A DNA stretch of 64,000 bases, taken from positions 1-64,000 of the forward strand of contig CAMXCT020001407.1 of NCBI GenBank assembly GCA_947184155.2, read 5' to 3'. Made by a program: the position numbers and the translations under genes. The DNA is from Cladocopium goreaui. Lineage: Eukaryota; Sar; Dinophyceae; Suessiales; Symbiodiniaceae. Within the stretch, counting starts at the first letter, position 1; each line of letters opens with the position of its first letter. The notes beneath the pieces were generated by a model, which saw only the letters and a list, made by a program, of their open reading frames with translations, was not told the origin of the DNA and ran no database searches. Positions 16,401 to 53,600 of the stretch are shown in pieces.

Positions 16401-19400
16401 TATTTAAATGATTTTATATGTATATATGGTGACATACTTTTCAACTATGGCTCCGTGTGGGTACCCAGTTCCCTCCTGTCGGGAAACCTGGCACTGCGGC
16501 CCGCTGCCGTCGCGCACAGCAGCGGCCCGTTTGTGCGGCCCAGTGCCATAGCTCCATGATGCTCCATGCGGAGCTGCGCCAGGGATATGTCAAGTTATGG
16601 GGATAAATCCAGGAATCCAGGATAAGACATGAGATAGTTATACCCATATAATTCCAATATATATATATGGCATCTTATGATTAGTTAATCAGTGTTTGAG
16701 CACTTGTCAGAATCAACTAGTTATAACTGTGCACATAGTTGAAGAAATGAATGTATGGTCACGTCTCAGTTCTCGCTAAATGTTGAAACAAATGAGCTGG
16801 ATAGACAGCATCTCTGAACCAAGCACCAGCAAGCTTTCCATCCATCGATTTTCCTTGGGCTCCGACAACAGCTTGAGCCACCAATGATTGTACCATTTCT
16901 TGGATTTTCTTGGCATGAATGAAGAGCCATTGATTTCTCAGGTTTGTCCAACATGCACAAACATGGTGTATGCCCCAAATCCATTGGTCAATTCGTCATA
17001 TTCCAGCCATTCAATTCCAAGTTGATACAAATTTATGGAACATGTTCAAACACGCTGGTATTTCAAACCAACCAGGTCTGCTGGTCCATCCTCTCCATGA
17101 CCACTGAGTATCAGCCAAACTGATCTCTAGGAAAGACTCCAAGCGTAGAACCAGCACTGCAGTGTCAAAGGGGAAACAAAACAGGTCATTCAAGATGTCA
17201 TTTCGACCTTGACTTCGATCGTTGTGGCACATTTTGTTGGAAAACAACTGTATTGTTTACCCTTTCAAGGGCAAAAAATTGAAAGCAACCGCTCCTTTCT
17301 TTTTAGACGCACCAGTGTTGGTACTTTACATTCTATGTTCATCGGTGGAACCATGTCAACCTATTTTCCAGTCTGAGTTGCATCATGTTTGATCCCCTTT
17401 GTGTGGAAAAAAACAAATCCATTGAAAACTGTGTCAATCCTATTGTTGTTTGTGGTCATCCATGGCTGGGAATCCTAAAAAAGCGGGTAACCACAAACCC
17501 AATGGATTCATGACCATCCTCTAAGGACTGGGTGCATCCAATTTCTGATAGCTGGTTGTACCATCATATTAACCACATATCCCCATGAATTCTCCGTTGA
17601 ATCCCTATGTTCAATGGTAGATTCCAAGTTGACATAACTTGACCATAGCACATCTGGTGACGCTTTCTATCATGATCCCCATCCCCCGGGAGCTCGTGCG
17701 GTAAGAGATCCACCCGGCTGGAGAGCAGTTGCCCAACTTTCCTGGGAATCTCTTTTTGCTCTGCGATGAAACTCGATCGAAATGGATGAGTTGACCTATT
17801 TCTTCTTGGATATTCAAGTCTGAGGTATTCAGCATGGATTTTTTGGAGGTTCTCAAAAGATCTTGTCGTGGTACTTGTCATGAGTGGAAGGTGGAGCAGT
17901 TCTGAAACAATGTAAAACATGGTTCCAATCTCCTTGTACGAACAAAACAAGTTTGAAGGAAAAGGCAGGGGCCAATCCAAATGAGAATTTAGGAGTGAGG
18001 GGTATGGGCCAAAGAATAGTGTAAAGCAGTGGTAGTGATCATTTCAAGTAGCCAATCATACGGCAGAGGTACCCAACTCAAACCAAATCTCTGGTGGTCC
18101 ACGTGGCCAACAGGAGTTGACCTTCAAACAAGAATTGTTGTACACGGCTTAGACATATATTCACAAGTAAAAAACATCTAATTCATCACACATATTCAAA
18201 AATCATTTCCATCAGCTCTTTTATTCTTAACTTGCTGGGGCTTACACTCTAATCTAATCATGACATCCATGGTCATGTTTTGGATACATGACACATCATG
18301 ACACCATACACCACCCCTCCCAACTTTTTTTGAACGCAAAGAAAACCATCTGCGGGTTTCCATAAATGGGGGTACCCCATTTATCATCCACTTTAATTGG
18401 ATTTTCCCTTATAAACCATCCAGCTATTGGGGTACCCCCATTTATGGAAACCCCCATCTGCGTCCAAGCCTCACAAAGCTGGGCCCCAGGTCCACCAAAC
18501 CATGTCTCAGCTCCGCTGCCAGCCGTGCATCTTCTGGGCGCCTCCAGGGTTCCGCCAGGAGCCACGCGCCGCAACGCCGCAGGATCTGCCAGACACGTCC
18601 CAGCACGGCGCCAACATCCGAGCCGCAGGCCTTTGAGGGGTCCAACATGGTCCAAAAAATGGTACGGTTTTCCTTGTTTTACATGTTTTTTCAAGTAATT
18701 CAACGTGATGGCCACATGATTTTATTCAATCATATACTGCAAGGGTGCTTTCAGCACAACTGATACGGGGTGAAAATGGGTGGAGAAAAAGTGAAATTAC
18801 TTTGTGTTGTTTTCTATATATATATTATATTATATATAATATATATTATATATATATATATATTATATTATATATATATATTATATTATATTATATATAT
18901 ATATTATATTATATTATATATATATTATATTATATATATATATATCACTTTTAGTTAGTTGGTTGGTCAAAACTTGTTCAAACCCTGATAACTGGATAAT
19001 ATTAGAGTGGAATGATTAATTGGATGTATACTTACATAACTTACATATTATTCATATGTTTACTGTAGATTGTTTAGTATTACACCTAATTACAGTAATG
19101 TTATTTACTGTTTCGTAAACGGTGAAGAGCTGCTGAATTTGGGATGTAATTCTGAAGGTCTACTTCCAGGATTGTAAGCAGTGGCTCCCCCTTGAGATGG
19201 GGAAAGTCACGAAGATGATATAGGAAGACAATTACTGGTTGGTGGTCTACCTACCCCTCTGAAAAATATGAAAGTCAGTTGGGATGATTATTCCCAATAT
19301 ATGGAAAAAAACATGTTCCAAACCACCAACCAGATGAATATGGATGTTCTTTCTTTTCTCTGCACTTTAATGAGATGACATGTTCCGAATAGGCTCCTAT

Positions 19401-21716: not shown

Positions 21717-21862
21717 TACCCTCTGGTTATGACTCACATAGCTATACCATATATGGAAAATCCATGAAAATCCCTCATAAATGGAGCTTTCTAGCTGGGA
21801 ACATCATCTATTTCGATTAGGGCCATTTTCCATAGCTATGTTAGTCATAACCAGAGGGTATA
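21717..21862. mobile_element. Short inverted-repeat element, family B
   Basis: 146 bp bounded by TATACCCTCTGGTTATGACT and its complement, with CATAGCTA inner arms. It is longer than the other copies because of the loop. Confidence 0.75.
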
Positions 21863-22510: not shown

Positions 22511-22949
22511 CTGTCAAGGGATGCCAAAGGTGCAATTTCCATCCTCAACATGTGACATGTGTGCATGCTCATGTGGGCTGCTGCGGCGAAGGACCGTGAA
22601 TTATGTTTCAACCATCAAGCATCGACATATCTATTCTATGAACATAGACAATGCTTCAAAATTGAACAGGTCTCTCAGTTTTCTCAGTGGGTTTCTCAGC
22701 CTTTGCCATATCCAATCATATCCAATCCCATGTTTGAGCCCCCTCCTGGTGTCAGGCAGAATCCGAACTGGACTCGGTCAGGGGACCCCAAATCTCCAAC
22801 AGGAAGTCGTTGATCTGCTGGAATTCGCCAGCACAAAGTTGTTGCCTCCAGGGGGCTGAACAACACGATGTAATACTCAATTATTTGTATGTAAATGCAT
22901 TTACATATTATCAATATATTAATACCATATCTATTGTCGTTCCTATATA

Positions 22950-24645
22950 TATATACATATTCATATAAGTATATACATATACACATATTCATATATATAT
23001 ATATACACATACATACGTACGTACGTACATACATTACATTACATTACATTACATTACATTACATTACATACATTACATACATTACATACATTACATACAT
23101 TACATACATTACATACATTACATACATTACATACATTACATACATTACATACATTACATACATTACATACAATACATACATTACATACATTACATACATT
23201 ACATACATTACATACATTACATACATTACATACATTACATACATTACATACATTACATACATTACATACATTACATACATTACATACATTACATACATTA
23301 CAAACATTACATACATTACATACATTACAAACATTACATACATTACATACATTACATACATTACATACATTACATACATTACATACATTACATACATTAC
23401 ATAAATTACATACATTACATACATTACATACATTACATACATTACATACATTACATACATTACATACATTACATACATTACAGACATTACAGACATTACA
23501 GACATTACAGACATTACAGACATTACAGACATTACATACATTACATACATTACATACATTACATACATTACATACATTACATACATTACATACATTACAT
23601 ACATTACATACATTAATACATACATTACATTAATACATTACATTACATTACATTGCATTGCATTGCATTACATATACATTACATTACATTACATTACATT
23701 ACATACATACATACATACACACACACATACACACACACACACATACATACATACATACATACATACATACATACATACATACATACATACATACATACAT
23801 ACATACATACATACATTACACATATACACATATACATACATACATACATACATTGTGTCTTGCCTAACCTCTGTAACAGTGGCACGAAGTAGGGCACCAT
23901 TTGGTGCACGAGGAAAATCGCAAAAAAGCACGATTTGGTGCACGAAGAAAACCAGAAAAAAGCACGATTTGGTGCACGAAGAAAAGTAAAAAAAAAACAC
24001 GGTTTGGTGCACCAGGAAAGCACAAAAAAAGCACGATTTGGTGCACGAAGAAAACCACAGAAAAAAGCACGACTTGGTGCACGAAGAAAACCGCAAAAAA
24101 GCACGATTTGGTGCACGAAGAAAACGACAAAAAAGCTCGAACTAGAGCACAATTTGGTGTATGAAGCATAATCATCAAAAAGAAAAGCATGAACTGGGGC
24201 ACCATTTGGTGCACGAAGAAAACCACAAAAAACACGATTTGGTGCACGAAGAAAACCACAAAAAAGCACGATTTGGTGCACGAAGAAAGCTCAAAAAAAG
24301 CACGATTTGGTGCACGAAGAAAACCAGAAAAAAGCACGATTTGGTGCACGAAGAAAACCACAAAAAAGCACGATTCGGTGCACGAAGAAAACCGTGAAAA
24401 AAAACGTATTTTTTTGGTGCTCCATTTGAAGCATGTTTAGTAAGAAATTGTTTTAACGACTGTTACAGAGGTTAGGCAAGACACAATACATACATACCTA
24501 CCTACCTACCTACCTACCTACCTACCTACATACATACATACATTACATACATTACATACATTACATACATTACATGCATTACATGCATTACATGCATTAC
24601 ATGCATTACATGCATTACATACATTACATACATTACATACATACA

Positions 24646-24676
<31 letters not shown>

Positions 24677-25078
24677 CATACATACATACATACATACATA
24701 CATACATTACATACATACATACATACATTACATTACATTACATTACATTACATACATACATACATACATTACATTACATTACATTACCTTACATTACCTT
24801 ACATACATACATACATAACCTACCTACCTACCTACCTACATACATACATACATTAATTACATACATTACATACATTACATACATTACATACATTACATAC
24901 ATTACATACATTACATACAGTACATACATTACATACATTACATACATTACATACATTACATACATTACATGCATTACATACATACCTGCATACGTACATA
25001 CGTACATACGTACATACGTACATACGTACATACGTACATACGTACATACGTACATACGTACATACGTACATACATACA

Positions 25079-25109
<31 letters not shown>

Positions 25110-25379
25110 CATACATTACATACATTACATACATTACATACATTACATACATTACATGCATTACATGCATTACATGCATTACATGCATTACATGCATTAC
25201 ATACATTACATACATTACATACATTACATACATACATTACATTACATTACATTACATTACATTACGTTACATTACATTACATTACATTACATACATACAT
25301 TACATACATACATTATATTAAATACATACATACATACATACATACACACATACATACATACGTACGTACGTACGTACAT

Positions 25380-25410
<31 letters not shown>

Positions 25411-25770
25411 CACAGACAGACAGACAGACAGAAAGACAGACAGACAGACAGACCTACCTACCTACATACAGACATACATACCTACCTACATACAAACAGA
25501 CAGACAAACCTACCTACCTACCTACCTACCTACATACATACAGACATACCTACCTACATGCATACAGACAGACATACATACCTACCTACATACATACAGA
25601 CATACATACCTACCTACCTACATACATACAGACAAACAGACAGACATACCTACCTACCTACCTACCTACATACAGACATACCTACCTACATACAGACAGA
25701 CCGACAGACAGACATACATACCTACCTACATACAGACATACATACCTACCTACCTACATACATACATATA
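22950..25770. repeat. (CATA)n, (CATTA)n, (CATACATTA)n and (CAGA)n microsatellite field
   Basis: About 2.2 kb of four- to nine-base tandem repeats in successive blocks (ACATT, ACATACATT, ACATAC, GTACGTAC, GACAGACA, CTACCTAC), interrupted at 23852-24487 by a TIR-bounded element. Several of the largest open frames in the window fall here and are entirely repeat translations. Confidence 0.95.
23852..24487. mobile_element. 636-bp element with perfect 29-bp TIRs and GTGCAC repeats
   Basis: The first 29 bases (23852-23880) are the exact reverse complement of the last 29 (24459-24487). Between them are about 14 degenerate units of roughly 34 bp with core GATTTGGTGCACGAAGAAAA and an A-run spacer. GTGCAC is itself palindromic. 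Open frames on both strands (DLVHEE, FVHQIVLF) are repeat translations, so no transposase is encoded; it resembles a non-autonomous DNA element or mobile satellite. The flanks are microsatellite, so a target-site duplication cannot be read. Confidence 0.8.
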
Positions 25771-25780
25771 TATATATATA

Positions 25781-26092: not shown

Positions 26093-27145
26093 CTAGCCTT
26101 CACCCGCCACTCCCAGGTGGATGTTTGAAGGCAAATCTGGTTGGTGGTTTCAAGCCCTCTGAAAAATATTAATCAGATTGGATCATTATCCCAACTATTG
26201 GATACTATTGGGGAAAATCAAAAATGTTCCAAACCACCAACCAGAAATACACTCTGCAACCGTCACCGAGCTCCTCCCACCTGCCCCTGGCGCAGGCATG
26301 TCCCAAGTTCTCATCCACCAGCCATCGCAGCTGCGCCCCCGCGAGACGACGCTGGTAACTCTCCAGGGCAGTCTCCGGCGGACACATGCGATCCCAACGG
26401 CCGTGGTGCGCTAAAACCTGCAGAACCCGTGGCGGTGGCCACTTAAGGGGGGGGTAGCTTCCAAGATGTTCCAAGGGAGTGGTCACGGGTAATTTTCCAT
26501 TGCCATGTTAGATTGGAGGGTATACTACTCAAATGGATGGGAACGGTTGCAGGGGGAAAATGTTCAGAACATTTCATGGGTTTGACCCAAAACTTGTTAG
26601 GGGCTCCATTGTTATAGAAAATCAAAGGTTTGACAGGTCCCTACATCCGAAAGCCCATCCTCACTGGAGGATTAAAAGCTCATGGTTGCCGTATCCCTCA
26701 CTTTTTGTGGCAACGATAACCTTAAAAACATGAAAGGCTTCCTTACATGCATATCCTTCATCAACATCACCTGAACGTGGGGCTAACCACAATTCACTTA
26801 CTCAAGTGATACTTCAACACAGACAAAAGGGGAACTGGCCTAATATAGGAAGGCTGAAAGAAATATGCTAATATGATCATGCGCGTTTCTGAATCATTGC
26901 CCAAATAATACTAGTGCCATGTAAATTCAAAATATCAAAATACGGGTGACTAATGAATAGTTACCAAACATGATGGTGATAAATCCCAATATATATATAT
27001 TCTTATATATATATATTGTTGGCGAAACCCAAATTCATGGACAATAGCTACATCAATCACGTACATTAAATAGAACTAAATATAAAACCTCAAACATTTA
27101 TGTAACATAGAAACGTTCATGATCCATATATATATATATATACAC

Positions 27146-27181
<36 letters not shown>

Positions 27182-29735
27182 AATGCAATATCTCACTATG
27201 CTAGTAGGATGTTTATTGATTCCTTTTTTATATCTGTTGGAGGTTGCTATATCTTGCCATATAATCATGGTTTATAACATAACCCATAAGTAGCTGGGTT
27301 ATACTATGCAATGGCTATAATTAATTAGTATGGTTGCGGTTGGTACGTTTGTGGTTTTTGTATATTGTGGTTAGGTTATACTATGGTTATTCTATGGTTA
27401 TATGGCTACTATATGGTTCTTAGGCTTAGGATGTTAGCCATGTTGGCTTCCGCTGCCGCTGTCCGGTGCCTTCATTGCGGCCAGCTCCTCCTCCGGCGCG
27501 CTCCGGCCGGAGCCCAGGGCCGCCCCCCGCAGCAGGAGCAGGGGCGAGCTCTTGGTGCTGAAGGAGACGGCGGCTTCGACCACCAACGCCACACCCTGCG
27601 GTGATGCTGGAGTGATTTTTACTGTGAAAAAAGGGGGAATCTGAAGTGTATTATGAAGGTTCAAAAGAAAAACGTGGAACTTCACGGGGATTTGAATTGG
27701 CAACATCCAACAGAAATGATTTAAACAAAATCTCTACATATCTCTACAGAATCTGATTTTATGCAACCCACATTCCCCCTGATTTTATAGAGGACATATT
27801 TAGGAGGATGGATTTGATAGGATTTACTGAATAAAAACATTCCGTCCAAATGTGTTTATACTTCGGAATTCAACATGATTCTGGCTGTCAAAATATGGAG
27901 AAATTGTCCAAAATATGGGACACACAAATGCTATTTCAAGCAGAATCTTGGCAAGTCACAATGATTCCGAGACCCTTAAACACGCCAATTTTGTGGTTGA
28001 TTTCCCCTTGTGACCAGAATCTAGGTGAATGAACTGTCCATAACCTTTGATCAGCCTTTGGCTTTGAGAGGTTGGTGATCCGGGGGCATCCGGACAATGG
28101 TCAAGGCATGGAAGGCAACTTTTACTTGTGATGGTGATCCCAAGACCTCTGAAATCCTTGTGGTTCATCATTCCTGACATTTCCTGACCAACATGCAGAA
28201 GCCCTCAAGAATGTGTTCAATGCCTTGAATCTCTTGGAACTGACTTCTCCGGATTCCAGCCATTGTTCAACTGTGCGTCTTGTGAACAGACAATCTCCAC
28301 CTGGTCGCATCGAAAAAATTGTACCTCGAAAGGTAAATTGGCTTTGTCATAGGGTGATTACAAATTAATTAAATTTATTTAATACTAATAATTTAATATA
28401 TAATTTATACCCCAAACTCCAATGGTTCCCGAGGAAAATCGCCAGAGACCTCTGGACATTTTGATCCAGGCCTGCGAAAAGCCGCCCAGCAGTAGACGCT
28501 TTGGGTCCTCGCCTCGAGAAACCCACGATGCGCTGACAGCTGGAGAACTGCTAGCGTGAAACAACCCAGTTCAGGTTGGAAGTGTATTTGTGGTGCTATG
28601 TGGTGCCCCAGTTCGTTGGCTAAGTTGGTTTAGTTCCGTCATGTTTCACGAGAATGTGTGAATGTGTGTGTATATATTATATAATCATGTATATATATAT
28701 ATACCACTGGTGCTTGATCGTAGTGCAACTCCACGTCTACAAAAAAAAATGTTGTCTTCGGCTTTTTAAATGGTCCATTAGTCGGTATTCAGCTGTACCG
28801 TTTGGTGGCACTCGTAGTTTGACCGGCTGGCTGGAGAGCAAATCATCTTAAGGACCACTCAGGTTCGATTCATTTGGATTTCTTTGAACATATGATACCC
28901 TCAATTTCTGAATTGTTATGATTAATTCCATGAACATTTCAATTTGTTATATGTGCATATTCCATGCTATCCCATCGCCATTTCATCGGGTTCAACGTCA
29001 GATGTCGACAGCTCACCTGGTAGTCTGGCAATTTCTTCCTCCATCAACTGCTGAATCCGTTCAATTTGGTCCGTCAGCTCCTGGGGGTCCTGTGCAACAT
29101 CGGGGACATCGTTTTGGGGTCAGTGCATGCAAAACCATATCATATAATATGTACCAAAGCGGAACACTGAACATGAAATCTGATATGTATATATATAATA
29201 TACATTTATATATAAACATATGAATATATGTGTATATAACATTATAACACCATATCAATGAAATGTCAGACACAGAACCTCAGAATGACATTAGGTGCAA
29301 AAGTATCCCACCTTCCCTTATCATGTCAACTTAATCATTCAACCATGGAACTTTGGACACATCATGAATGACATCGGTTGCCACACAATTTGGAACCCCA
29401 CAAATCTGCTTATTTTCATTATTGTTGTTATTACATGTAGTTATTGCACATTGTTACCATTGTGGCTGGTCCAAGGTCAAATTGATGTCAAGTTCAAAAA
29501 AGTTGGGTTTTTGCCAGAGGTCCTTTGCACTGTCTCCATCCTCTGCATACTCAAACCACGAGTTCATTTCGCCTCTCCACGAGTGGTGCGCCTCTCTCCG
29601 TAAGGGTGCGCACGGCACCACAAATCGGATCTCGTTGCGAAAGGGGACCTTCAAGCGATGGAGGATGGGAGTCCAATCATCTGGACCTCCACTGCAGGAG
29701 TGGAGCAGAATCCTTGGCGTTGCTCTTGTGGCCAT
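26093..29735 (-). CDS. Alpha/beta hydrolase: acyl-protein thioesterase/carboxylesterase family, six exons
   Basis: Exons in order are 29529-29735, 29017-29089, 28472-28539, 27470-27595, 26261-26417 and 26093-26136. Together they total 675 nt, or 224 residues plus TAG, the usual size of LYPLA/APT-type serine hydrolases. Exon 1 starts MATRATPRILLHS, then FVVPCAPLRREAHHSWRGEM and NSWF (the family's PxAP...SWFD strip). Exon 3 ends RLLLGGFSQ and exon 4 starts G, giving the nucleophile elbow G-F-S-Q-G. Exon 5 has HHGRWDRMCP (acid residue Asp) and ENLGHACARG (catalytic His). Probable role: cleavage of acyl esters/thioesters from lipids or proteins in the cytosol. Donors: GC after exons 1, 3 and 4; GT after 2 and 5. 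The oxyanion segment is LLHSCSGG rather than the common LHGLGDTG. Confidence 0.8.
26137..26244 (-). mobile_element. Introner-like element, copy 2, forms a hydrolase intron
   Basis: 108 bp with CTGGTTGGTGG/CCACCAACCAG ends and a perfect 4-bp flanking duplication (AAAT on plus at 26133-26136 and 26245-26248). It makes up all but 16 bp of the 124-bp intron 26137-26260, and its AG is the splice acceptor. Confidence 0.85.
26261..26417 (-). CDS. Hydrolase exon with catalytic Asp and His
   Basis: A 157-nt exon following TTCTGCAG, reading VLAHHGRWDRMCPPETALES and later DENLGHACARGRWEELGD. It ends at GGTGACG|GTTGCAG, 16 nt before an introner copy. Confidence 0.8.
27130..27185. repeat. (TA)n microsatellite
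   Basis: A pure TA run within the intron between hydrolase exons 4 and 5. Other short TA runs lie at 26988-27020. Confidence 0.85.
28472..28539 (-). CDS. Hydrolase exon with nucleophile elbow
   Basis: A 68-nt exon following CTCCAG: two bases finish a split codon, then VSASWVSRGEDPKRLLLGGF-SQ. It ends CGCAG|GCCTGG, a GC donor, in phase 0. The next exon supplies the Gly completing the GxSxG motif. Confidence 0.75.
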
Positions 29736-31500: not shown

Positions 31501-31932
31501 GCTTTTTTGCTGTTTTAGTGGTATAATGGCTAAGTTTGTGCCAAAATTGTCATATGTTTTTTTCTTTGCTGTCCTTTAGAAAGTTTTACTTTGTGCAAAA
31601 AAGTAGGCAATAATCTCCTCTTAGGAGATTTTTCCTTTACAGAAACCATGCATCTTCTGAGGAGGCTTTCTTTCCTCTGTGTAGAAATCTTTCTCTCAGG
31701 AAATTTTATTTCTATATCCTTGAAGAAACCAAGATGTAGTGAGTACCTGCGAGGGCTCAGGGCATGGGCAAAGAGATGAACAAAAAACAAATGTGTGCTA
31801 GTGTCTGCTTGACAAGAATTCCTTTTTTTCTCTTCATGCAACAGGCCACTGTGGAAGTTCGTGTTGAGACATGAATTTGTACAATGTATTTCTGGAAGTT
31901 GAAGCAATTGTATTTTCCTCAGATGCGACTGC

Positions 31933-34202
31933 TCATGTGGCATCAAACCAAAGTAGAATGAAGCAAGGGGAAAAAAAAAACAAGCAAACACCAAATGGCA
32001 AACAAGGTTCTCCACCCCTTCTTCTTGAAATAGCAGCCACTGTCCCACCCATATCTTCATCTCTATATGTCCAATTCTGAGAAGGGCAGCACTCATCAAA
32101 TTCACATAGCTCCTGGAAGAGGTGGTGCTTGGGTTTGAACCTCCAAAACATTCCTTCAGGATCGCTGTCAGAGAGGGAGACATAAAGCAGCAGGAATCTT
32201 TGTCCTGCTATAGCTAATTCTTGTGAGTTCCAAAGGTCTCTTGACAGCAGGCTGCAGCAAGCATTCAATTGCAATGTGGCCTGGAAAATGGTGTTTTCAA
32301 AAGTGTTGGACTTGCCCAGCAACGCTTCTGCAATTTCCAAGCTCCATGGTATGAGAGACCGGGTTTCTCCAGCAGATGCTCTAAGCTTGGGAGCTGAGAC
32401 TGTTTGTTTTTTGTCAGTCTTCCTGAGCATTCCCATAGTCAAAGTATCAAGCCTGTTGTCCACTGAACATCTTCTGTAGAAAGATTGCATGGATCTAAAA
32501 ACAGAGCTCAACCTCTTGTCTTTGCTGGCTCCAGGAAATCTATCAAGGAGGAAATAAATCAAATTTCCAAGAAAATCTTGGGCAACTCCCCGGTCACAAG
32601 CATGCAGCCAATCAATAACAAAGCAATCTATCTGCAGGTCTGGTGCAGAGAATAATGCAGATATTTGTTTTCCTTCTGTTATGCAACCAGCAAAATGATC
32701 CATGGTCGTTTTTCTCTGGCTCCTCCAAACCGCGGAACTGGTGCAATCCCTGCTGTTTTTTTTTGCTGGCATAGCACCTATAGCAAATGTTGTCTGTGCC
32801 AGACCATCCACTGAGGTTGAATGTGTTTTTGTACATTTCCCAGTCTCCTCTAACTTCTGTGAGAAGTGCAGTGCAATTCAAACTTTTGCCTTGGCTCTTT
32901 GTTCTCCATGAAGACAGGAATGGGTTACCAGCATGGTCCCTGGGTGGAAAGAATCCAGCTGTCAAAACTTGGAAGGACCAAGCCAAAATTGCGAAAATTG
33001 CTTGCATTGTTTTCTCCTTGACCACAAACTTCTTGTTGATCACCTGAGCAAAGCCACTTGGTGGTAGGGAAAGAACTCCTCAAAAGAGCCCCTTTGGATA
33101 GCTTCTGGGAGAAAGACAAGGAACCATATATTTGCTGCTAAAAGGCGCACAAGGAAATTCTGAGCCTGGAGAAAATGTCATCAGTTTGGCCACAGAAGCT
33201 CATTGTAATAACAATGACAGATTGGCTTCTGTCCCATTTGACAGGGCAACCATCTGTCCACAACCCCACAGGGATGCAGGTGGTGGGATACTTTCCCAAC
33301 AAAGGCACTGTTTTCTCAAAGTGCTTTCTGGCTGAAGCTGAGAGCCCTGCCCTGTCAAAGACCTTCTGTTTGGAGTGCCGGTTCCAGGACATGATATTTG
33401 CCAGGACTTCATGTGGCAGCAACACATTGATAGATTCTTCAACACTTGATGTGTTTTCTGGTGCAACACTGGGATTTTAGCTGCATAGAGAGGTGGCCAT
33501 TTACTGCCTTTCATGAGTTTTCTGACCAAATCTCTTTGGGCATTCTTGCCCTCATTCACAGCAAGGTCTGCCACACCTGTTGCCCCATCAAACTCAGCAT
33601 CCTGAAACACAGTTGCAGCTCTTCCAGCACTGATAGCACCTGATAGAAATAAGTCTGATACATTTTTCCTGAGTCTCTTGTCAGGCCTGTCAAAATCATT
33701 TCTCTCACTAACAAATTTACTTTTTGAAAACATTGCTAGGAAAACCTGGGGCCATAAACTGCAGCTGGGATTGTGCATTGTGCTTTCTCCTTGAAAGGTT
33801 CCCCATAATCTGCAAATTGCAATTTGAAAACATGTGGACACAAAAGTGTGAGTCATATGCTGGACAAACAAGCTTGCAGCAGAAGCATGGGTGGCACCTC
33901 CTCAGAGGAGATGTGGCAGCTCCAAACCTCAGCTGTTATTGAATGAGCAGCAGGAATGTGTTTCAGGGGCTGACACAAATTGCTGCTCAGTGCAGGAACT
34001 TTCTCTCAAGATCTTCTTGTTCATCACCATCCTGGTCAGTGACTGCCTGAGTTTGGCTCTTCTCCATGTTCTTTGTGTCTAGAGGTGGAACCATCACTTG
34101 AGAATCTTCTCCTTCCAGTAGTTGCCAATCCTTGTACTGGTCGAAGTTCTCTGCCAATTCCATGCCCTTGACATATTCAAGCCTTCGCCTCTTGGCATCC
34201 AT
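31933..34202 (-). pseudogene. Transposase-like multicopy dinoflagellate gene, frameshifted
   Basis: Starts at ATG 34202 (MDAKRRRLEYVKGMELAENF). The main coding stretch includes RPDKRLRKNVSDLFLSGAIS, KWPPLY, LLPHEVLAN, CIPVGLWTDG, then INKKFVVKEKTMQAIFAIL, EVRGDWEMYKNTF, LFSAPDLQIDCFVIDWLHAC and TYRDEDMGGTVAAISRRRGG. From memory these blocks match a protein family present in many copies in Symbiodiniaceae genomes and often linked to mobile elements; no domain name is asserted. It is broken: the frame changes between 33440 and 33480 and again in an A9 run near 32757-32765, and a segment around 33060-33145 with stops may be a short intron. Functional status is doubtful, unless the homopolymer shift is an assembly error. 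Confidence 0.6.
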
Positions 34203-37692: not shown

Positions 37693-39640
37693 CTTCTATG
37701 TATGTATGTATGTATGTATGAATGTATGTATGTATGTATGTAGGTACGTACGTACGTACGTACGTATGTATGTATGTATGTTATGTATGTATGTTATGTG
37801 TTATGTATGTATGTTATGTATGTATGTATGTTATGTATGTTATGTATGTTATGTATGTTATGTATGTTATGTATGTATGTATGCTTGTATGTATGTTATG
37901 TTATGTTATGTTATGCTATGCTACGTATGTATGTATGTATGTTATGTGTTATGTATGTATGTATGTATGTATGTATGTTATGTATGTATGTTATATGTAT
38001 GTATGTATGTATGTATGTAATAATGTAATGTATGTAATGCATGTATGTATGTTGTTATGTTAAGTTAAGTTATTTATGTATGTATGTTATGTATGTTATG
38101 TATGTTATGTATGTTAAGAGTGTTATGTACGTTATGTATGTATGTATGCTTGTATGTATGTATGTATGTTATGTTATGTTATGATATATTATGTTATGTT
38201 ATGTTATGCTATGGTATGTATGTACTTATGTATGTATGTGTGTATGTATGTATGTATGTACGTACGTACGTACGTACGTACGTATGTATGTATGTATGTA
38301 TGTTATGTATGTATGTTATGTATGTATGTTATTTATGGATGTTATGTATGTATGTTATGTATGTTATGTATGTTATGTATGTTATGTATGTTATGTATGT
38401 TATGTATGTTATGTATCTTATGTATGTATGTATGTATGTTTGTATGTATGCATGCATGTATGTATGTATGTATGTTATGTATGTATGTATGTTATGTATG
38501 TATGTATGTTAATTATGGATGTTATGTTATGTATGTTAATTATGGATGTTATGTTATGTATGTATGTATGTATGTACGTACGTACGTACGTACGTATGTT
38601 TGTATGTATGTATGGTATGTATGTTATGTATGCATGTTATGTATGTTTGCTATGTATGTATGTTATGTATGTATGTTATGTATGTATGTTATGTATGTAT
38701 GTTATGTATGTATGTTATGTATGTATGTTATGTATGTATGTAGTGCATGTAATGCATGTAATGTATGTAATGTATGTAATGTATGTTATGTATGTATGTA
38801 TGTATGTACGTACGTATGTATGTATGTTATGTATGTATGTTATTTATGGATGTTATGTATGTATGTTATGTATGTTATGTATGTTATGTATGTTATGTAT
38901 GTTATGTATGTTATGTATGTTATGTATGTTATGTATGTTATGTATGTTATGTATGTTATGTATCTTATGTATGTATGTATGTTTGTTTGTATGTATGTAT
39001 GGTATGTATGTTATGTATGCATGTTATGTATGTTATGTATGTATGTATGTTATGTATGTATGTATGTTATTTATGGATGTTATGTATGTATGTATGTTAT
39101 GTATGTTATGTATGTTATGTATGTTATGTAGGTATGTATGTATGTTTGTATGCATGTATGTATGTATGTTAAGTTATGTTATGATATATTATGTTATGTT
39201 ATGCTATGCTATGGTATGTATGTATGTATGTATGTATCGTATGTAATGTATGTAATGTATGTAATGCATGTAATGCATGTAATGCATGTAATGTATGTAA
39301 TGTATGTAATGTATGTATGTATGTAATGTAATGTCATGTCATGTCATGTAATGTACTGTACTGTAATGTAATGTACGTAATGTAATGTAATGTAATGATT
39401 GTATGCATGTATATGTATGTATTTATATGTATGTATGTATATGTATGTATGTACCATGGTATGTATCATGGTATGTATCATGGTATGTATCATGGTATGT
39501 ATATGTATGCATATGTATGTATATGTATGTATATGTATGTGTATGTATATATATATATGTATATATGTATATATATATATTATGTATGTATTATATATGT
39601 ATAGATATATAAAAATATATATATGTAATATATGTGTGTA
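37693..39640. repeat. (TATG)n/(TTATG)n microsatellite field
   Basis: About 1.95 kb of TATG, TTATGTATG and TACG blocks, essentially the reverse complement of the 22.9-25.8 kb field. Open frames of Met/Tyr/Val/Cys are artefacts. Confidence 0.95.
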
Positions 39641-40060: not shown

Positions 40061-41586
40061 CTGGTGGCAAAATGGCCCCTTAAGGATCTTTAAGGTACAA
40101 GTAGAATCTGGTTCCAAAATAGTGATAGACTAAACGACTACATAATGATATAATCTAATATATATATATACATATATATTTATCCAACATATTTAATGTC
40201 AAGCCAACCAGAGAGATTTGCTGATAGGTTGGAAGATGTTGAAAGATGTTGGAAGATGTTGGAAGCATGCCCATTTTTGGTTGGCTACAGCAGAACCCCC
40301 ACAACATCGGCGCCATTCGGCGCCTGTTCCTCCGACGTCGTCTTGCGGCGCGCGGCGTCGTCCCACTTCCAGCGGCGTTCTGCCCAGCGATCTTCCTGTG
40401 CCCGTGTGGTGTCCATGGTTCATGAAGATGTTGCAACACGAAATTCGATGTGTTTATAATTATATTTATCTGTTTTTAATATTTACAAACATTATCATGA
40501 CCTTCATTTTTGATCCTTACACATGTACTATTTCAAAAGTGAACTTTCAAATTGCACAAAAAGGGGGAGTTTAACCCATCATGTTTGTTGTCTAACTGGA
40601 ATCTCATAATCCTTGCGATGAATGCCAAGTGGATGGTAATTTGTTGTGTTACATATACCCCGTATACCCCATCATGGCACTGGTATATGCTGGTGGCTGC
40701 TCATATCGATCCCATTCACACTGTTTATGATAAGATATCTATCAGGAACTTCCAACGTAGATGATTCAGAAGGATAATTCTCATCATATGTTTCAGTGAG
40801 GAGTTTTACAGCAAGCAGGCCGAAGTAGACCGAAAGTGGCCAGGTTCTGGTGGGGCGTATAGCCAAAAAAATCGTCCACACTATCAAGAAACCACCTGGG
40901 CATGGATCTCACCTTTCAGGTACTAAAGGTATCTAAGGAGACAACTGAAATATCCATCCATATCCCATTTTCAGATTCGTTGACACCATGATCATTAAGA
41001 TGATTGCTACTGTACCCAACATCAAGATCGATAGGTAGGCTCCGTCTGTAGATGACAATCGGTCAACTCTAAGACCCAAATGGGCCCGCGGATTTAGAGA
41101 ATAACATTCTTAGGAATTTAGGAATCAAATAGTGTGGTCAGTGTGGTCTCAATTTTTGACTCATCCCATTCCATCCCGAAAAAACATCCCATAACTGCCC
41201 CCTGTAAAAACCTGCTGAAAGGCCTTCCTAGCCTCACCAACTATCCACCAACGATTCACCAAGGAACAGACCTATCCTTCCAGTCTTTCCACCCCCAAGA
41301 CGAAGACCTTGGCGCAAGAATCATCTGGTTGGTGGTTTCAATCCATCTGAAACACATTAAATATAGTCACAGGGGATCATCATCCCGTTTCGGTGGTTGA
41401 AACAAATATATGAAACCACCAACCAGTCTACTTATTTCAACCACAAAATGGGTATAGGTCCCGTTTGGGGGCCGCACAGGGACAGTATAATAGAAACCAT
41501 CAACGAGCCATGGACATTAGTAATGTCTTGGCTGTTTCTTTTTCTATGTGTTTTTTTTTTGCGGGGCGGCGCAGGGACAACAAATA

Positions 41587-41619
<33 letters not shown>

Positions 41620-44600
41620 TTGTAGTGGCAGGCACAGTAAGTTGAAAGTCGTTGAACCGCTTGGTTGATGCGGAATGAAATCACACAGCTCTTTATTGGA
41701 GTAACTCGGGCGGTGGTCCGGTGGTCATCTGTGAATCCCAATGCCGCCGTCAACACATGGTCACATGGTAGCTTGTGGTCATCCCTCAGTTGGAAATCCT
41801 TATGCTAGTAGTGAGATGTAGTGGGTAGATCAATCCCTAATAGATTGATGGCCATCCGACAATATGGCTACAGTGTAATTTTCAACTTTTGACCACGGCA
41901 CAGAAAAACCGTAGCTTCTATTAACATAGACCCATTTTTAATAAATGACCTTTTTTTTGTGGAATTCAATCTTCCAACCCCCTGTCTGCCAGAGTCCATG
42001 TTAACCATCTTTCCTGGGTCCCCGAACGATTGCGCTTGCTGCGCTTGCTGCGCTTGCCATCCGTTCCAGCCCTGCAACGGCTCCACCAAAGTATTAAAAA
42101 AAAAAAACGGGGTTTGACCAAGTCCCACAGATTGAACATGATTGACAGGTGTCTGAAAAGTGGAAACTAAGGACAATCCATTCAACTCATAATACACTTT
42201 ACATTACCGTGAATCCTAGGGGAAAAAACTATGGAAGGGACATACGGTACAGCAGTAAGAATTGACCTGCCATCACAAGACACTAAATCTCTGACGCAGG
42301 TGATGGAAACCAAGTGGCAAGGTGGGAAACCTCCACACCCACAGAGAGTGGACATGAATGATTATGAAGTTGCCCCTCAACACATCCTGTTGCTTATTAG
42401 GGAGTAGGGGAGTGGGATTAAAAGTTATTAGGATCGTTCCCCCCATTCCCTACTACTATTTCAGAGCGGCTTCACCTTTTTCCGAACTTCTTAGACCACT
42501 TGCTTGACAGCTAAAAGATGGAATATGTGTCCTTAGGAACCTTCTGTAACATTTCTTTTTCATCGTGCAGCTTCACAGGCAAGCAGGCACATATACCCTA
42601 TACATCTGCATGGTCGACTTTAGGTCTATATATAGATCCTTTTTGGTATGTTTAATATTAAAATGTATCAATATTATTGGACACAATCGATTGATGTTAC
42701 ATACACTCACGGCTATCAGCCATTACTCGACTGTTGACCAATCCATAGTGGCAAATGACCTGAGGGATGTCCACAAAAGAATTGTCTAACTGAACCCATT
42801 CTGGCACTGGACCGATGTATACATATGTTTGTATATTCTATAACCCAGATACTAAGCCAGATATGATATTTGACCCATGTATATATATAATATAATACAA
42901 ATGTAATATAGTACCAAAATACTATATGATTACTATATAACAATATATGACCCAAATATACCCCGATATGAAAAACGCTTAACACAGTCCATGGCCCCCA
43001 TGACCCATCACCTGCCGCCAGTTCTCGTCTCCCCAGTCCCCTTGGCTGGGTCAAAAAGCTATGGAATTACCGACTGGGGGGAATAAACATCCATTCACCA
43101 GCTATTTTAGGATACGGCGCCAAGGTTTTGATTCACAATGTCATAGATAGGATGTGATTTATGGGGTGTCCATCCGTTTTATAGATGCCTATGAATTCCA
43201 ACTAAACGGATTGATGATCATCTCCTTTGATTAGAATATACCATGTTTTGGCCGTGGCACATATATCCTGGCTGGTGGTTTTAACACCCTAAAATACGCT
43301 CGTCAATAAGGCTCATCATCCGCATTCCTATGACCGGAAAACAAAAAACCCAACAACTACCAGTATCTGGCTGAATGGTGTATATATATATATTATATAT
43401 GTAATCCATATATATATATATGTAATCCACCAAGCTAGAGTTTCTGTTCATTTTGCTCTGGTTCCCCTAGAGTAAGGCATAATCTATCGTGGCGTCGTTT
43501 TGTGGGGTCGTTATCATTCAACCCGAAAATGGGAAAAATGAAGCAACAGAAAGAGCTGCACTGAACACCCTTGAAATCAACATCTAAAAGACCATAAGCG
43601 AATGGGGTTTACTGGGGTCTACTGGTCTTGTTTCACTTATCAATGTGTCCCTTATTTTTGGCACTCCCATTTCAACATGTTCCACCCATTTTCAACATTT
43701 TTCAACGCTATGCTGCCCCAACATCCCTCATGCTGCGCAGGCCACTGGGTGTGCGCGACGCACTCCGCATGGCTCAATAGCGACAGCTTCTGTTCCGTAG
43801 CGTCAGAGCCGAAACGTTTACGGCACAGAGGATACGATTTTCTGTGTGTCTAGCGGAATATGGGGTGTAACGCGAAATTATTGCCTGTTCAATAGTGAAC
43901 ATATGTGAAAATGGTGATACTAACCAGTGGAATAGTGAAAATGAAAATAGTGAAAATGTATTGAATAGTGAAAATATGTAAAAATATGTGAACATGATCA
44001 TTAACCAGTGGATGGAATAGCGTACCGGCGCACCCCGATTGTAGACAAACCCATATTAATAGCCAACAATGATGTGGTCATCACCTGCCATTAGTCCTCT
44101 GGTCCACCTTCCTAGTTAGGTTCTCTTATTCCTTATCTCCGACAAATACATCAAAAATCAAGATCATCCTCAGGTCCTAGACAAATAATATATATTGTTT
44201 ATATTGTTTTCTTGGTTGGTTGTACCCCTTTTCAACATGCTGTCATAGAAATGTCGCCCAACACTGCTTACCTCTAGCAAGCCCAGAATGTTTGCTACCA
44301 GACTCCCACCTCAAAGACCTTGGCTGCAGAAGGTCGCTCCACCGGATTCCACTCGAAGCACTTGGAGAGGATTTCTTTCACCTGGCTGCCATTGCAGGTC
44401 ATCCTCACCGGATCCAAGGTGCGGTAAATCATAGCAAAACATGCGAAATGTTCAGCTGGTTGGTGGTATACTATACAACCCCCTCTGAAAAATGATGGAG
44501 ATCGTCAGTTGGGATGATGAAATTCCCAATATATGGAAATTCCCTATGGAAAAAAAAATGTTCCAAACCACCAACCAGTCAGGGTTTTGCAGGGACACCA

Positions 44601-47600
44601 GGTTTGATATCTTTTGATTATCCTTGCGGATGTGAGGAAATTACAAGCAAAAGGCAAGACTTAGGATGGTGTGATTGTTTACCATTAATTATTTTAAATA
44701 TGGGAGTTTCTTAAAATGAGTGATCCCCCAAATCATCTAAAATTAGATCATTTTAGTATTGAAACCCATGGTTTTGGGGATCCATCATTTTAGGAAACCT
44801 CCAATATGTTTTCCAACAAAATCCCATGGCGCTGACGCCAAACTTCTCTGGGCCTCTGGGTGAAAAGGCACCGCCCAATCATCCTCAGCAGCTTCCGGTG
44901 AGAAATCTCTGACCATGGTGTTTCCATTGAAACACATAAGTTATTGTCATTGTGGCTGTTTCGGGTCACGTGCTCTCGGTCCACGGGGACGGTGGTTTTT
45001 GTTTTTGTCCACCAAGATGATTGTCAGGCCATGTCAGGCCATATTGTGGGGGTGGGGTTCCGCCCGCGTTTTCTAACATGCTCTGGATGCTACGCTCTTG
45101 ATGTTTTCAAGTAAGTTTCCAAGATGTTCTGGATGCAATGCTCTTGACTTTCTCAAGTAAGTTTCCAAGATGCTCTGGATGCTACGTTCTTGATGTTTTC
45201 AAGTAAGTTTCCAAGATGCTCTGGATGCAATGCTCTTGACTTTCAAGTAAGTTTCCAAGATGCTCTGGATGCTACGCTCTTGATGTTTTCAAGTAAGTTT
45301 CCAAGATGCTCTGGATGCAATGCTCTTGGCTTTCTCAAGTATGTTTCCAAGATGCTCTGGATGCTACGCTCTTGATGTTTTCAAGTAAGTTTCCAAGATG
45401 CTCTGGATGCAATGCCCTTGACTTTCTCAAGTAAGTTTCCAAGATGCTCTGGATGCTACGCTCTTGATGTTTTCAAGTAAGTTTCCAAGATGCTCTGGAT
45501 GCAATGCTCTTGACGTTCTCAAGTAAGTTTCCAAGATGCTCTGGATGCTACGCTCTTGATGTTTTCAAGTAAGTTTCCAAGATGCTCTGGATGCAATGCT
45601 CTTGACTTTCTCAAGTAAGTTTCCAAGATGCTCTGGATGCTACGCTCTTGACGTTTTCAGTTTTCAAGTAAGTTTCCAAGATGCTCTGGATGCAATGCTC
45701 TTGGCTTTCTCAAGTGAGTTTCCAAGATGCTCTGGATGCTAAACTCTTGACTTTCTCAAGTAAGTTTCCAAGATGCTCTGGATGCTACGCTCTTGATGTT
45801 TTCAAGCAAGTTTCCAACATGCTCTGGATGCAATGCTCTTGACTTTCTCAAGTAAGTTTCCAAGATGCTCTGGATTCTACGCTCTTGATGTTTTCAAGTA
45901 AGTTTCCAAGATGCTCTGGATGCAATGCTCTTGGCTTTCTCAAGTAAGTTTCCAAAATGCTCTGGATGCTACGCTCTTGGTGTTTTCAAGTAAGTTTCCA
46001 AGATGCTCTGGATGCAATGCTCTTGACATTCTCAAGTAAGTTTCCAACATGCTCTGGATGCTACGCTCTTGATGTTTTCAAGTAAGTTTCCAAGATGCTC
46101 TGGATGCTAAACTCTTGACTTTCTCAAGTAAGTTTCCAACATGCTGTGGATGCTACACTCTTGATGTTTTCAAGTAAGTTTCCAAGATGCTCTGGATGCA
46201 ATGCTCTTGACTTTCTCAAGTATGTTTCCAAGATGCTCTGGATGCTACGCTCTTGATGTTTTCAAGTAAGTTTCCAAGATGCTCTGGATGCAATGCTCTT
46301 GGCTTTCTCAAGTAAGTTTCCAAGATGCTCTGGATGCTACGCTCTTGATGTTTTCAAGTCAGTTTCCAAGATGCTCTGGATGCAATGCTCTTGACTTTCT
46401 CAAGTAAGTTTCCAAGATGCTCTGGATTCTACACTCTTGATGTTTTCAAGTAAGTTTCCAAGATGCTCTGGATGCAATGCTCTTGACTTTCTCAAGTAAT
46501 TTTCCAACACGCTCTTGATGCAATGCTCTTGACTTTCTCAAGCAAGTTTCCAACACGCTCTGCATGCTACGCTCTTGATGATCTCAAGGAAGTTTCCAAC
46601 ATGCTCTGGATGCTACGCTCTTGATGTTTTCAAGTAAGTTTCCAAGATGCTCTGAATGCAATGCTCTTGGCTTTCTCAAGTAAGTTTCCAACATGCTCTG
46701 GATGCTACGCTCTTGATGTTTTCAAGTAAGTTTCCAAGATGCTCTGGATGCAATGCTCTTGACTTTCTCAAGTAAATTTCCAACATGCTCGGGATGCTAC
46801 GCTTTTGATGTTTTCAAGTAAGTTTCCAAGATGCTCTGGATGCAATGCTCTTGACTTTCTCAAGTAAGTTCCCAAGATGCTCTGGATGCTACGCTCTTGA
46901 TGTTTTCCAGTAAGTTTCCAAGATGCTCTGGATGCAATGCTCTTGACTTTCTCAAGTAAGTTTCCAAGATGCTCTGGATGCTACGCTCTTGATGTTTTCA
47001 AGTCAGTTTCCAAGATGCTCTGGATGCAATGCTCTTGACTTTCGCAAGTAAGTTTCCAACATGCTCTGGATGCTACGCTCTTGATGTTTTCAAGTAAGTT
47101 TCCAAGATACTCTGGATGCAATGCTCTTGACTTTCTCAAGTAAGTTTCCAACATGCTCTGGATGCTACGCTCTTGATGTTTTCAAGTAAGTTTCCAAGAT
47201 GCTCTTGATGCTACGCTTTTGACTTTCTCAAGTAAGTTTCCAAGACGCTCTTGATGCAATGCTCTTGGCTTTCTCAAGTAAGTTTCCAACATGCTCTGGA
47301 TGCTACGCTCCTGATGTTTTCAAGTAAGTTTCCAAGATGCTCTGGATGCAATGCTCTTGACTTTCTCAAGTAAGTTTCCAAGATGCTCTGGATGCTACGC
47401 CCTTGATGTTTTCAAGTAAGTTTCCAAGATGCTCTTGATGCTACGGTCTTGATGATCTCAAGTAAGTTTCCAAGATGCTCTGGATTCTACGCTCTTGATG
47501 TTTTCAAGTAAGTTTCCAAGATGCTCTGGATGCAATGCTCTTGGCTTTCTCAAGTATGTTTCCAAGATGCTCTGGATGCTACGCTCTTGATGTTTTCAAG

Positions 47601-50600: not shown

Positions 50601-53600
50601 TTTCTCAAGTAATTTTCCAACATGCTCTGGATGCTACGGTCTTGGTGATGCTACGGTTTTAATGATCTCAAGTAAGTTTCCAAGATGCTCTGGATGCTAC
50701 GGTCTTGATGATCTCAAGTAAGTTTCCAAGACGCTCTTGATGCTACGCTTTTGACTTTCTCAAGTAAGTTTCCAACATGCTCTGGATGCTACGCTCTTGA
50801 TGTTTTCAAGTAAGTTTCCAAGACGCTCTTGATGCTACGGTCTTGATGATCTCAAGTAAGTTTCCAAGACGCTCTTGATGCTACGCTTTTGACTTTCTCA
50901 AGTAAGTTTCCAAGACGCTATTGATGCTACGCTCTTGACTTTCTCAAGTAAGTTTCCAAGACGCTCTTGATGCTACGCTCTTGACTTTCTCAAGTAAGTG
51001 TCCAAGACGCTCTTGATGCTACGCTCTTGATGTTTTCCAGTGAGTTTCCAAGACGCTCTTGATTCTACGCTCTTGACTTTCTCAAGTAAGTGTCCAAGAC
51101 GGTCTTGACGCTACGCTCTTGATGTTTTCAAGTATTAAGTTTCAACACGCTGATGGTGCTATGGTCTTGACTTTTGGGCTACGTTTGTTTGCAGATAAGA
51201 ATCAAATGAACATTGCGATATATTGCGATGTTTTGCATTGTGTCCCATTAAAGGTTGCTCGCAAAGTCAAGGGCAACGCCAAAATTTCCAGGACGCAAGT
51301 CTTAGATGGGACTTGGATGTGGCTGAAAGCCTCAAAACAAAACATGACAAAGTCATTAACCCGCGTTTGTAGGACTATGTGTACCAGTTTTAGACACAAC
51401 AAGAAAGATTAGAGAGACATGCCTGTGGATGAAGAAACGATTTGTTTGTCCTTTTGCATTTCCTGGCATTGCAACATGAAAACACAAAACACTGTAAACA
51501 AAAGTGAGACACACAATTTTGAACGATTTCACCCGAGTACTGAGCACGCGTGTTGCCTTGTTTTCACTTAAACAGAAGTGAAACACATATAAAATAGTAT
51601 ATAATATACTTTGGTATACTTTAGTTGTGCTTAGTTAAGCAAACTATAGTATATTGTAGTATAGCATTGGACGATCAGGTTTTTGAATTAAGTTGTAGTG
51701 TTGAGCAGTGTCTTCCTTTACAGCAGGAACTGGGTATTCCTCCAAACGGTGCAGCAATCCAGCTGGATGCAGGGTCCAAATTTTCAGCTGCGGCTTTCAA
51801 GCCTCGATGACCTTTCGGGTACCCTTAATAGGAACACTCATATTAATTACCATCTGGTTATTTAACATAGCCATGGAAAATGGCCAATTTATAGATGGTT
51901 TACCTATTAAAAATGGTGATTTTCCATGGCTATGTTAAATAACCAGAGGGTATAGGAGATTTTTTTTGGGTACCCTTAATAAGAAGACCCATATCAACTA
52001 TAGATGATTATAGAAGATTATACAGCTGATGTGTTTCCATCCCTCAACAAAGACATGCAAAACAGTATCTATTGAAGTTGAAGGATCAGCCCGATATATC
52101 CCGATATTAGTCAGCTGGAACCAGCCAAGACAAGCCCCAGCAGGATGGGAAAAAACAATCATCGAAGCCCCCACCAATCGATTTATTGGGGTTTGTCTCA
52201 GAATGAGATGCCCTCAAATCGGAGTATCATCAACATCCCAAAAAAGGAAAATGCAAATTTGCTGTATATTGCTGTATGCATTTTCTGACCAATCCCAACT
52301 TGACAAGTGAACTCCCATGCTTCCAAGACTAAACATGGCCTATGCCTATGATGCCTATGTGGCTTTGTCTTAAAATTGGCCCCCAAATCCATGATCATGG
52401 TATACCCATGGTCTGTACCCAATAGTAAATGATCATAGGTTTGTCTTAAATTGTGGGAAATGATCATCCGCACCATGTTCCCCGGCCGTCTATGGCCATC
52501 AATTGGTTTGTCATCACTGTTGGATCCCATGATACTCCAGAAGGCATATCTATTTTTCGAAAAGAATTCTAATCTATGAATATATGATCATATCAAAGTG
52601 GTGATGATTAAATTACAATATATATATATATACATATTTGTAATATAATCCCGAATTGTTATATGATGTTATAATGAAATCCAAATTTGGACCAGCCATG
52701 ACAAAGCTGAATCTGGGTCAGCCTGCAGTGAAGGGTGGCTCTTTGGTCACCAGCAGCTTGGTCGCTACCTTCCGAGAGAATACTTGGGAGTCTTCCAGCA
52801 TGTCACCGCAATTCAACCCACCCCATGAAGATGTGTATATACAAATGTATGTACATATATATATATATACATTAGATATATATATATATATAATGAGATT
52901 GCTATATTAAACACAGACTGTGTCCTTTCTTGAGCAAGTGATTTGTGACGACACAAAAGCTTGCCAGGTTTTTTCAAGGTGGATCAACAGCCCTCTGAAG
53001 TCTCAACCATACCTGGAACATGACGCTTTTGGATGATGTTAAAGTAATGATCAAATATGTACCCTCTGGTAATTTAACATAGCTATTGAAAATAGCCATT
53101 TATAGTGGATTTATCCATTAAACATGGTGATTTTCCATAGTTACGTTAGTTTACCAGAGGGTATGTCTTCATATCTCTTCAACTGCATGGACGCTTGCTC
53201 ATGCATCATGAGAAATTTGAATTATATACTTGCAATTTATTGCCATTGCATGACTGTCCAGCCTTTAAGTCTTGTCATTAGGACCCAACAGTCCACCAAC
53301 GAAAGGGAGAATGACATATCTACACAATATATATATATAATTATGTATATATACATGTATATAATTATGCATGTGTATATATAATTATGTGTATATATAT
53401 AATTATGTATTATGTATATACATATATAATACTGTATGTATATATATATATGAAGGTTTGCTAAAATAAAGGTACCGCAATCATTTAAGTTATATTTTCG
53501 TATTGAAACCCATGGTGACTTGGGGATTCCCCATTTCAAGAAATCCCCATATATAGTACGCAATAATGGATCTGGAAACATTAACTAATTCACTGAACTG

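Follow-up and report, generated by a model that had tools for sequence, protein, structure and literature searches.

The last exon of a hydrolase gene in Cladocopium goreaui is interrupted by a short inverted-repeat element, which raises the question of whether the insertion created an intron, as the original prediction held, or placed a transposon within an exon. The window, the whole stretch of 64,000 nucleotides that was analysed, is C1407:1-64000, and the genome searched was the 1.17-Gb assembly of 6,202 contigs. A 200-kb sample containing 7,883 N has a GC content of 0.426 of all letters, so about 0.44 of the bases. In the account that we favour, a non-autonomous DNA transposon (MITE) would have struck the final coding exon of an acyl-protein-thioesterase-like esterase, making a 4-bp target-site duplication. 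Its family would keep one orientation per block, apparently that of the sense strand of the genes nearby, and most copies so oriented would offer a pyrimidine tract with CAG as well as a terminal CAG. The insertion would be tolerated through a 3′ splice site borne by the element or through a new C-terminus. Taken as a whole, this account seems to us somewhat better than an even chance.

The interrupted gene and the inserted element

Hand-joined exons on the minus strand match the Abhydrolase_2 profile (PF02230) with 33.9 bits against a cut-off of 23 (E 3.7e-8), and the nearest solved relative in the PDB is acyl-protein thioesterase 2. Judged by this homology the interrupted gene is an acyl-protein-thioesterase-like esterase, in agreement with its earlier description as a hydrolase. 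The position of the L-P relative to the catalytic His is the same as in human APT1. The exons were placed as follows, with a slash marking splice boundaries here and below.

29472..29735, minus strand: exon 1, 88 codons, donor TTG/GACCAG
29017..29089, minus strand: exon 2, acceptor CACAG/GACCCC, donor CCAG/GTGAGC
28472..28560, minus strand: exon 3 with the nucleophile motif GGFSQ, donor CAG/GCCTGG; 5′ end not fixed
27460..27595, minus strand: exon 4, acceptor CGCAG/GGTG; 3′ end not fixed
26245..26417, minus strand: last exon, part upstream of the element (VLAHHGRWDRM...GHACARGRWEELGDGCRVY), acceptor TTCTGCAG/G
26093..26136, minus strand: open frame of 13 codons (LPSNIHLGVAGEG) and a stop, following the element when the site is read as empty; its length does not allow a coding test

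With one end each of exons 3 and 4 not fixed, the total of 225 codons originally given for the gene was not confirmed. The placed introns are several hundred bp long each. The first (29090-29471, minus strand) has the word GACC at both edges (TTG/GACCAG...CACAG/GACCCC), possibly the relic of an older introner-type insertion.

Across the genome there are 31 matches to PF02230. The multi-Mb contig C1, which has several long uninterrupted PF02230 frames and many motif matches, seems to come from a bacterium present in the culture or the assembly. A genome search with the last hydrolase exon returned the exon itself and two weak matches (E 0.83 and 2.9), with no close paralogue, and a genome search with the kinase exon described below gave no close paralogue either; there is therefore no empty allele for comparison.

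The element and the sites around it are these.

26137..26244, minus strand: 108-bp MITE copy interrupting the last hydrolase exon, in the sense orientation of the gene; 93.1 bits, the best of the five window copies
26133..26136: one copy of the target-site duplication, AAAT (ATTT in gene sense)
26245..26248: the other copy of the target-site duplication, AAAT (ATTT in gene sense)
26157..26167, minus strand: internal acceptor-like stretch ATTTTTCAG/AG, the AGs ending at 26159 and 26157
26137..26260, minus strand: originally predicted intron, 124 bp, donor ACG/GTTGCA, acceptor CCAG/ATTT
26261..26266, minus strand: alternative frame-keeping donor TCG/GTGACG, from the donor test; the intron would begin at 26266

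The inverted termini, CTGGTTGGTGGTTT and AAACCACCAACCAG, are 14 bp long and perfect; the length of 108 bp, the perfect 4-bp duplication and the terminal AG in gene sense are likewise as predicted. With up to three mismatches allowed, the window contains the terminus 21 times, against 6.7 expected. Given this excess, the five copies in the window and the 18,234 genome occurrences of the exact 21-bp left end against 0 for its reversed control, the element is not a chance pattern. The 26-bp variant proper to the hydrolase element has 8 exact copies.

No stop interrupts the hydrolase frame between the conserved part and the insertion point, and, as had been claimed, the frame also runs open through the empty site when the element and one copy of the duplication are removed (GDGCRVYLPSNIHLGVAGEG). 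As the frame is open to the insertion point, coding DNA was probably struck, unless the exon ended earlier. The site reads as coding and lies in the last exon, and what it holds is a MITE with its target duplication; the claim of an insertion into coding sequence is thus supported, and we consider such an insertion likely. Two of the five window copies of the family interrupt apparent coding exons. We think it unlikely that the element landed instead in a pre-existing intron with its donor upstream (for example CAG/GTGGGA at 26280) and its acceptor further downstream. That donor, which is out of frame, has the highest score of the GT donors nearby (8.2, as against −2.1 for ACG/GTTGCA, in a generic matrix whose scores serve only to rank sites because dinoflagellate donors are weak), and a length of several hundred bp would match the placed introns of the gene; against this, reading through the empty site extends the last helix to the length usual in the family, by comparison with human APT1.

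Fate of the element in the transcript

What becomes of the element in the transcript we infer from the DNA. The original prediction was an intron whose donor GT lies 12 nt ahead of the duplicated word and whose acceptor is the terminal AG of the element. The GT is in place, the 124-bp interval has GT-AG ends, and its removal would keep the frame at the cost of four codons, but the exact donor and acceptor are not supported as stated. With the terminal AG as acceptor, seven of the 24 GT, GC or GA donors tested keep the empty-site frame; one of them, TCG/GTGACG, lies six nt upstream of the predicted donor and scores 3.2 in the same ranking. The target-site duplication offers no donor. Both candidate acceptors, the terminal CAG and the CAG of the internal acceptor-like TTTTTCAG/AG on the sense strand, are AG/A. 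All five homology-placed introns of the hydrolase and kinase genes have AG/G acceptors (donors GA, GC, GC, GA and GC), although at the last kinase intron one of two in-phase AGs was picked partly by the AG/G rule. In Symbiodinium the intron AG is reported to be frequently followed by G and donors to be GT, GC or GA (PMC4083563), a habit from which the CCAG/A of the hydrolase differs. The five placed introns follow it, as fits a dinoflagellate nuclear gene. Introners with a 4-bp target-site duplication, terminal inverted repeats and a 3′ splice site on the element, as described for S. microadriaticum in PMC9860276, speak for the predicted intron, as do its GT-AG ends and intact frame. The choice among seven frame-keeping donors, the poor donor score and the AG/A acceptor weigh against it, and so does a second exon-interrupting copy; we regard this exact intron as unlikely.

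44456..44578, minus strand: second exon-interrupting copy, 123 bp, inside a protein-kinase exon; duplication CTGA (gene sense)
44579..44622, minus strand: part of the kinase exon upstream of the copy (DNQKISNLVSLQNP), acceptor CCGCAAG/G, in a phase that fits the previous exon
44298..44455, minus strand: part of the kinase exon downstream of the copy (EHFACFAMIYRTLDPVRM...NPVERPSAAKVFE), weak Pkinase match (E 0.17)
53946-54050, 54551-54601 and one ending at 55298, minus strand: upstream exons of the kinase gene, of which 44298-44622 is the last recognised exon

The upstream exons carry the motifs HRDLKSAN, LCDLGIT and YMSPELF...DLWALGCLAVE, and a joined query without the DNQKISNLVSLQNP part matched ABL kinases (best E 5.8e-7). 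At the empty site the kinase exon, DNQKISNLVSLQNP joined to EHFACFAMIYRTLDP, starts at AG/G, and once the two parts are joined 69 codons read through without a stop. None of the GT, GC or GA donors keeps the kinase frame with the terminal AG, so that the acceptor rule originally proposed does not serve both genes; three donors keep it with the AG of the internal TTTTTCAG.

The transcript may also be left unspliced. The hydrolase would then be translated from GCRVY into the element (FWLVVWNIFDFPQ), where the frame runs for 13 residues before a stop, giving a protein that ends ...GCRVYFWLVVWNIFDFPQ. The element would thereby replace the last 13 codons with a new C-terminus, and the rest would become 3′ UTR. 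All residues before the insertion would be kept in this case, as against the four codons deleted by the proposed splice, and the AG/A acceptor and weak donor also point this way. The acceptor-like signals in the sense strand of most copies examined argue the other way, as does the kinase copy, in which the unspliced frame would reach a stop where the element ends and so cut the kinase domain short. We give this outcome a serious but less than even chance. That the RNA uses a 3′ splice site borne by the element together with some donor in the upstream exon we put at evens. Given the seven frame-keeping donors among 24, the AG/A acceptor, the weak donor and a plausible unspliced end, splicing of the hydrolase element is possible, and the original observation of an exon that holds a MITE is sound but went too far in treating the intron as established. 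The insertion is likely tolerated, either through such an element-borne 3′ splice site, most sense copies carrying acceptor-like signals, or through the new C-terminus.

Copy number and orientation of the family

The window holds five copies of 96-123 bp, and one further copy lies just beyond it. Besides those in the hydrolase and kinase exons, the family search of the window gave the following.

19235..19333, minus strand: family copy
41325..41426, minus strand: family copy
43268..43363, minus strand: degenerate family copy, duplication GATA

Among 24 copies examined, ten have a perfect 4-bp duplication, the duplicated words being AT-rich in most of these, two more agree over 5 bp instead, and TTTTCA(A)G is present in 21. 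In the sense orientation most copies examined show a pyrimidine tract with CAG in addition to the terminal CAG. The family has terminal inverted repeats, a fixed short target-site duplication, short length and high copy number, and as a whole it looks like a plain MITE rather than a set of clean introns. Drawing the donor from the duplication does not look like a family-wide habit, because the candidate intron of the hydrolase exceeds the element by 16 bp and GTNN stands directly before 829 of the 18,234 left ends (4.5%, counting GT words alone). Viral contigs scanned for exact matches to the element had none. The spliced-leader core has seven matches in the window against 7.0 expected, which is a weak test.

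Several other features of the window were noted in passing. A 100-bp element at 18354-18453 with 26-bp inverted ends and 8-bp direct repeat flanks belongs to a third MITE-like family. Long tandem arrays lie at 45100-46500 and beyond, 22900-25780 and 38000-39200, with units of the GAGCATCTTGGAAACTTACTTGA type and ACAT/ACCT/ACAG tetranucleotides. On the minus strand, 31530-32877 has long open frames, possibly of a transposable-element protein.

Copies of the family share their orientation with their neighbours. Among the first 100 of the 18,234 left ends (contigs C2-C6), 94 of 95 neighbour pairs agree, or 86 of 87 once pairs less than 1 kb apart are removed. Within the GTNN subset, 32 of 34 pairs agree among the first 100 places, including all 30 within 400 kb, and each of the two switches spans a gap of more than 500 kb. 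A second MITE served as control.

51849-51951, 53061-53162, 21718-21859 and loci L003-L026: control MITE, about 103 bp, terminal inverted repeat ACCCTCTGGT, mixed orientation

An internal 22-mer of this MITE has 10,104 exact matches in the genome, and neighbours agree in 37 of 87 pairs among the first 100 of them (C2-C17), a difference from the focal family with a Fisher p of about 1e-19. In sampled stretches the focal family is uniform (6/6 on C1407, 5/5 on C2 and 3/3 on C3557; neighbours 7/7). The two orientations of the control MITE number 7 and 6 on C2, 3 and 3 on C5948, 3 and 2 on C1407 and 3 and 2 on C3557, with 14 of 20 nearest neighbours within a locus agreeing. In the places examined, the focal family thus has one orientation per chromosomal block.

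Gene direction was taken from kinase and DEAD motifs as strand markers. The 229 markers comprise 88 of the 100 listed among 190 matches, a further 14 of 24, 29 of 33 and 98 of the 100 listed among 147, those on the bacterial-looking contig C1 being left out; 16 of them lie on a contig that also has a copy of known orientation, and the set of 29 contributes none of these. Patterns run in reverse gave 39 matches against 190 and 33 against 147, so that some of the markers are there by chance. Within 50 kb all seven markers agree with the nearest copy, within 200 kb 10 of 13 and overall 11 of 16, the disagreements being three of six between 50 and 200 kb and two of three beyond 200 kb. One of the disagreeing markers, on C245 and counted among the 13 within 200 kb, has a stop codon within its motif, and two matches on C380 are about 600 kb from the copy. 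Many of the DEAD matches contain a single string, VFDEAD, and could come from one repeated gene. Gene direction was also sought with a self-trained coding-strand model, which yielded 17 segments, of which several are repeats, and was set aside in favour of the motif markers as too weak. Two weak plus segments (L019 and L020) beside minus copies on C3557, and a minus segment on C2 at 300 kb (L010) before plus copies at 401-422 kb, went against the sense-orientation reading; the DEAD motif on C3557 is on the minus strand. Because the markers agree nearby and S. microadriaticum genes are arranged in unidirectional blocks, as PMC8110479 describes, the copies likely follow the direction of transcription, the marker test being a small one.

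Such polarity could come from purifying selection against antisense copies rather than from directional insertion, which we put slightly short of evens. The splice-like signals in the sequence differ between sense and antisense copies, which speaks for selection, but sampled stretches with no recognised genes are equally uniform (5/5 on C2, 3/3 on C3557), and the second MITE is mixed both there and in the places listed. Somewhat unlikely, in our estimate, is that transcription itself sets the direction of insertion, with the tens of thousands of copies lying sense in unidirectional blocks and integration coupled to the transcribing polymerase or to an RNA-DNA hybrid. If this were true, insertions into exons would come with an acceptor on the right strand, making intron birth far easier than with unoriented insertion. 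An orientation fixed by the direction of the gene block would allow a direct test of insertion versus selection as the source of sense-only copies, and an orientation-fixed transposon could map transcription blocks from sequence alone in unannotated dinoflagellate genomes. The source of new introns is a long-standing question, for which dinoflagellate introners are among the best live cases.

Relation to known elements

Ordinary MITEs are short and non-coding, with terminal inverted repeats, a short target-site duplication and very many copies. The family is like them in size, termini, duplication, copy number and AT-rich duplicated words, and differs in that, in the places examined, its orientation stays the same along long blocks. 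The introners of S. microadriaticum, as described by Gozashti et al, 2022 (PMC9860276), have a 4-bp target-site duplication, terminal inverted repeats, an acceptor on the element and a donor co-opted from the duplication. Compared by described features, not by sequence, the element is similar in its 4-bp duplication, termini, AG at the element end and dinoflagellate host; the duplication here is ATTT, however, with GTNN before only 829 of the 18,234 left ends. The introners of Polarella and other dinoflagellates (Roy et al, 2023, as cited in PMC11453091) likewise point to recent intron creation by DNA-transposon-like elements, but those are counted as introns, whereas the present family is known from DNA alone. 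The introner elements of Amoebophrya, as described in PMC7789003, also have inverted repeats with direct repeats of 3-5 nt at the intron edges; their boundaries are largely non-canonical, whereas GT/GC/GA-AG ends were tried here. A search of the open-licence literature, which did not include Roy et al, 2023, found no dinoflagellate MITE described as locked in orientation. Introner-like MITEs are already known, and what seems to be new is the apparent locking of this family to the direction of transcription.
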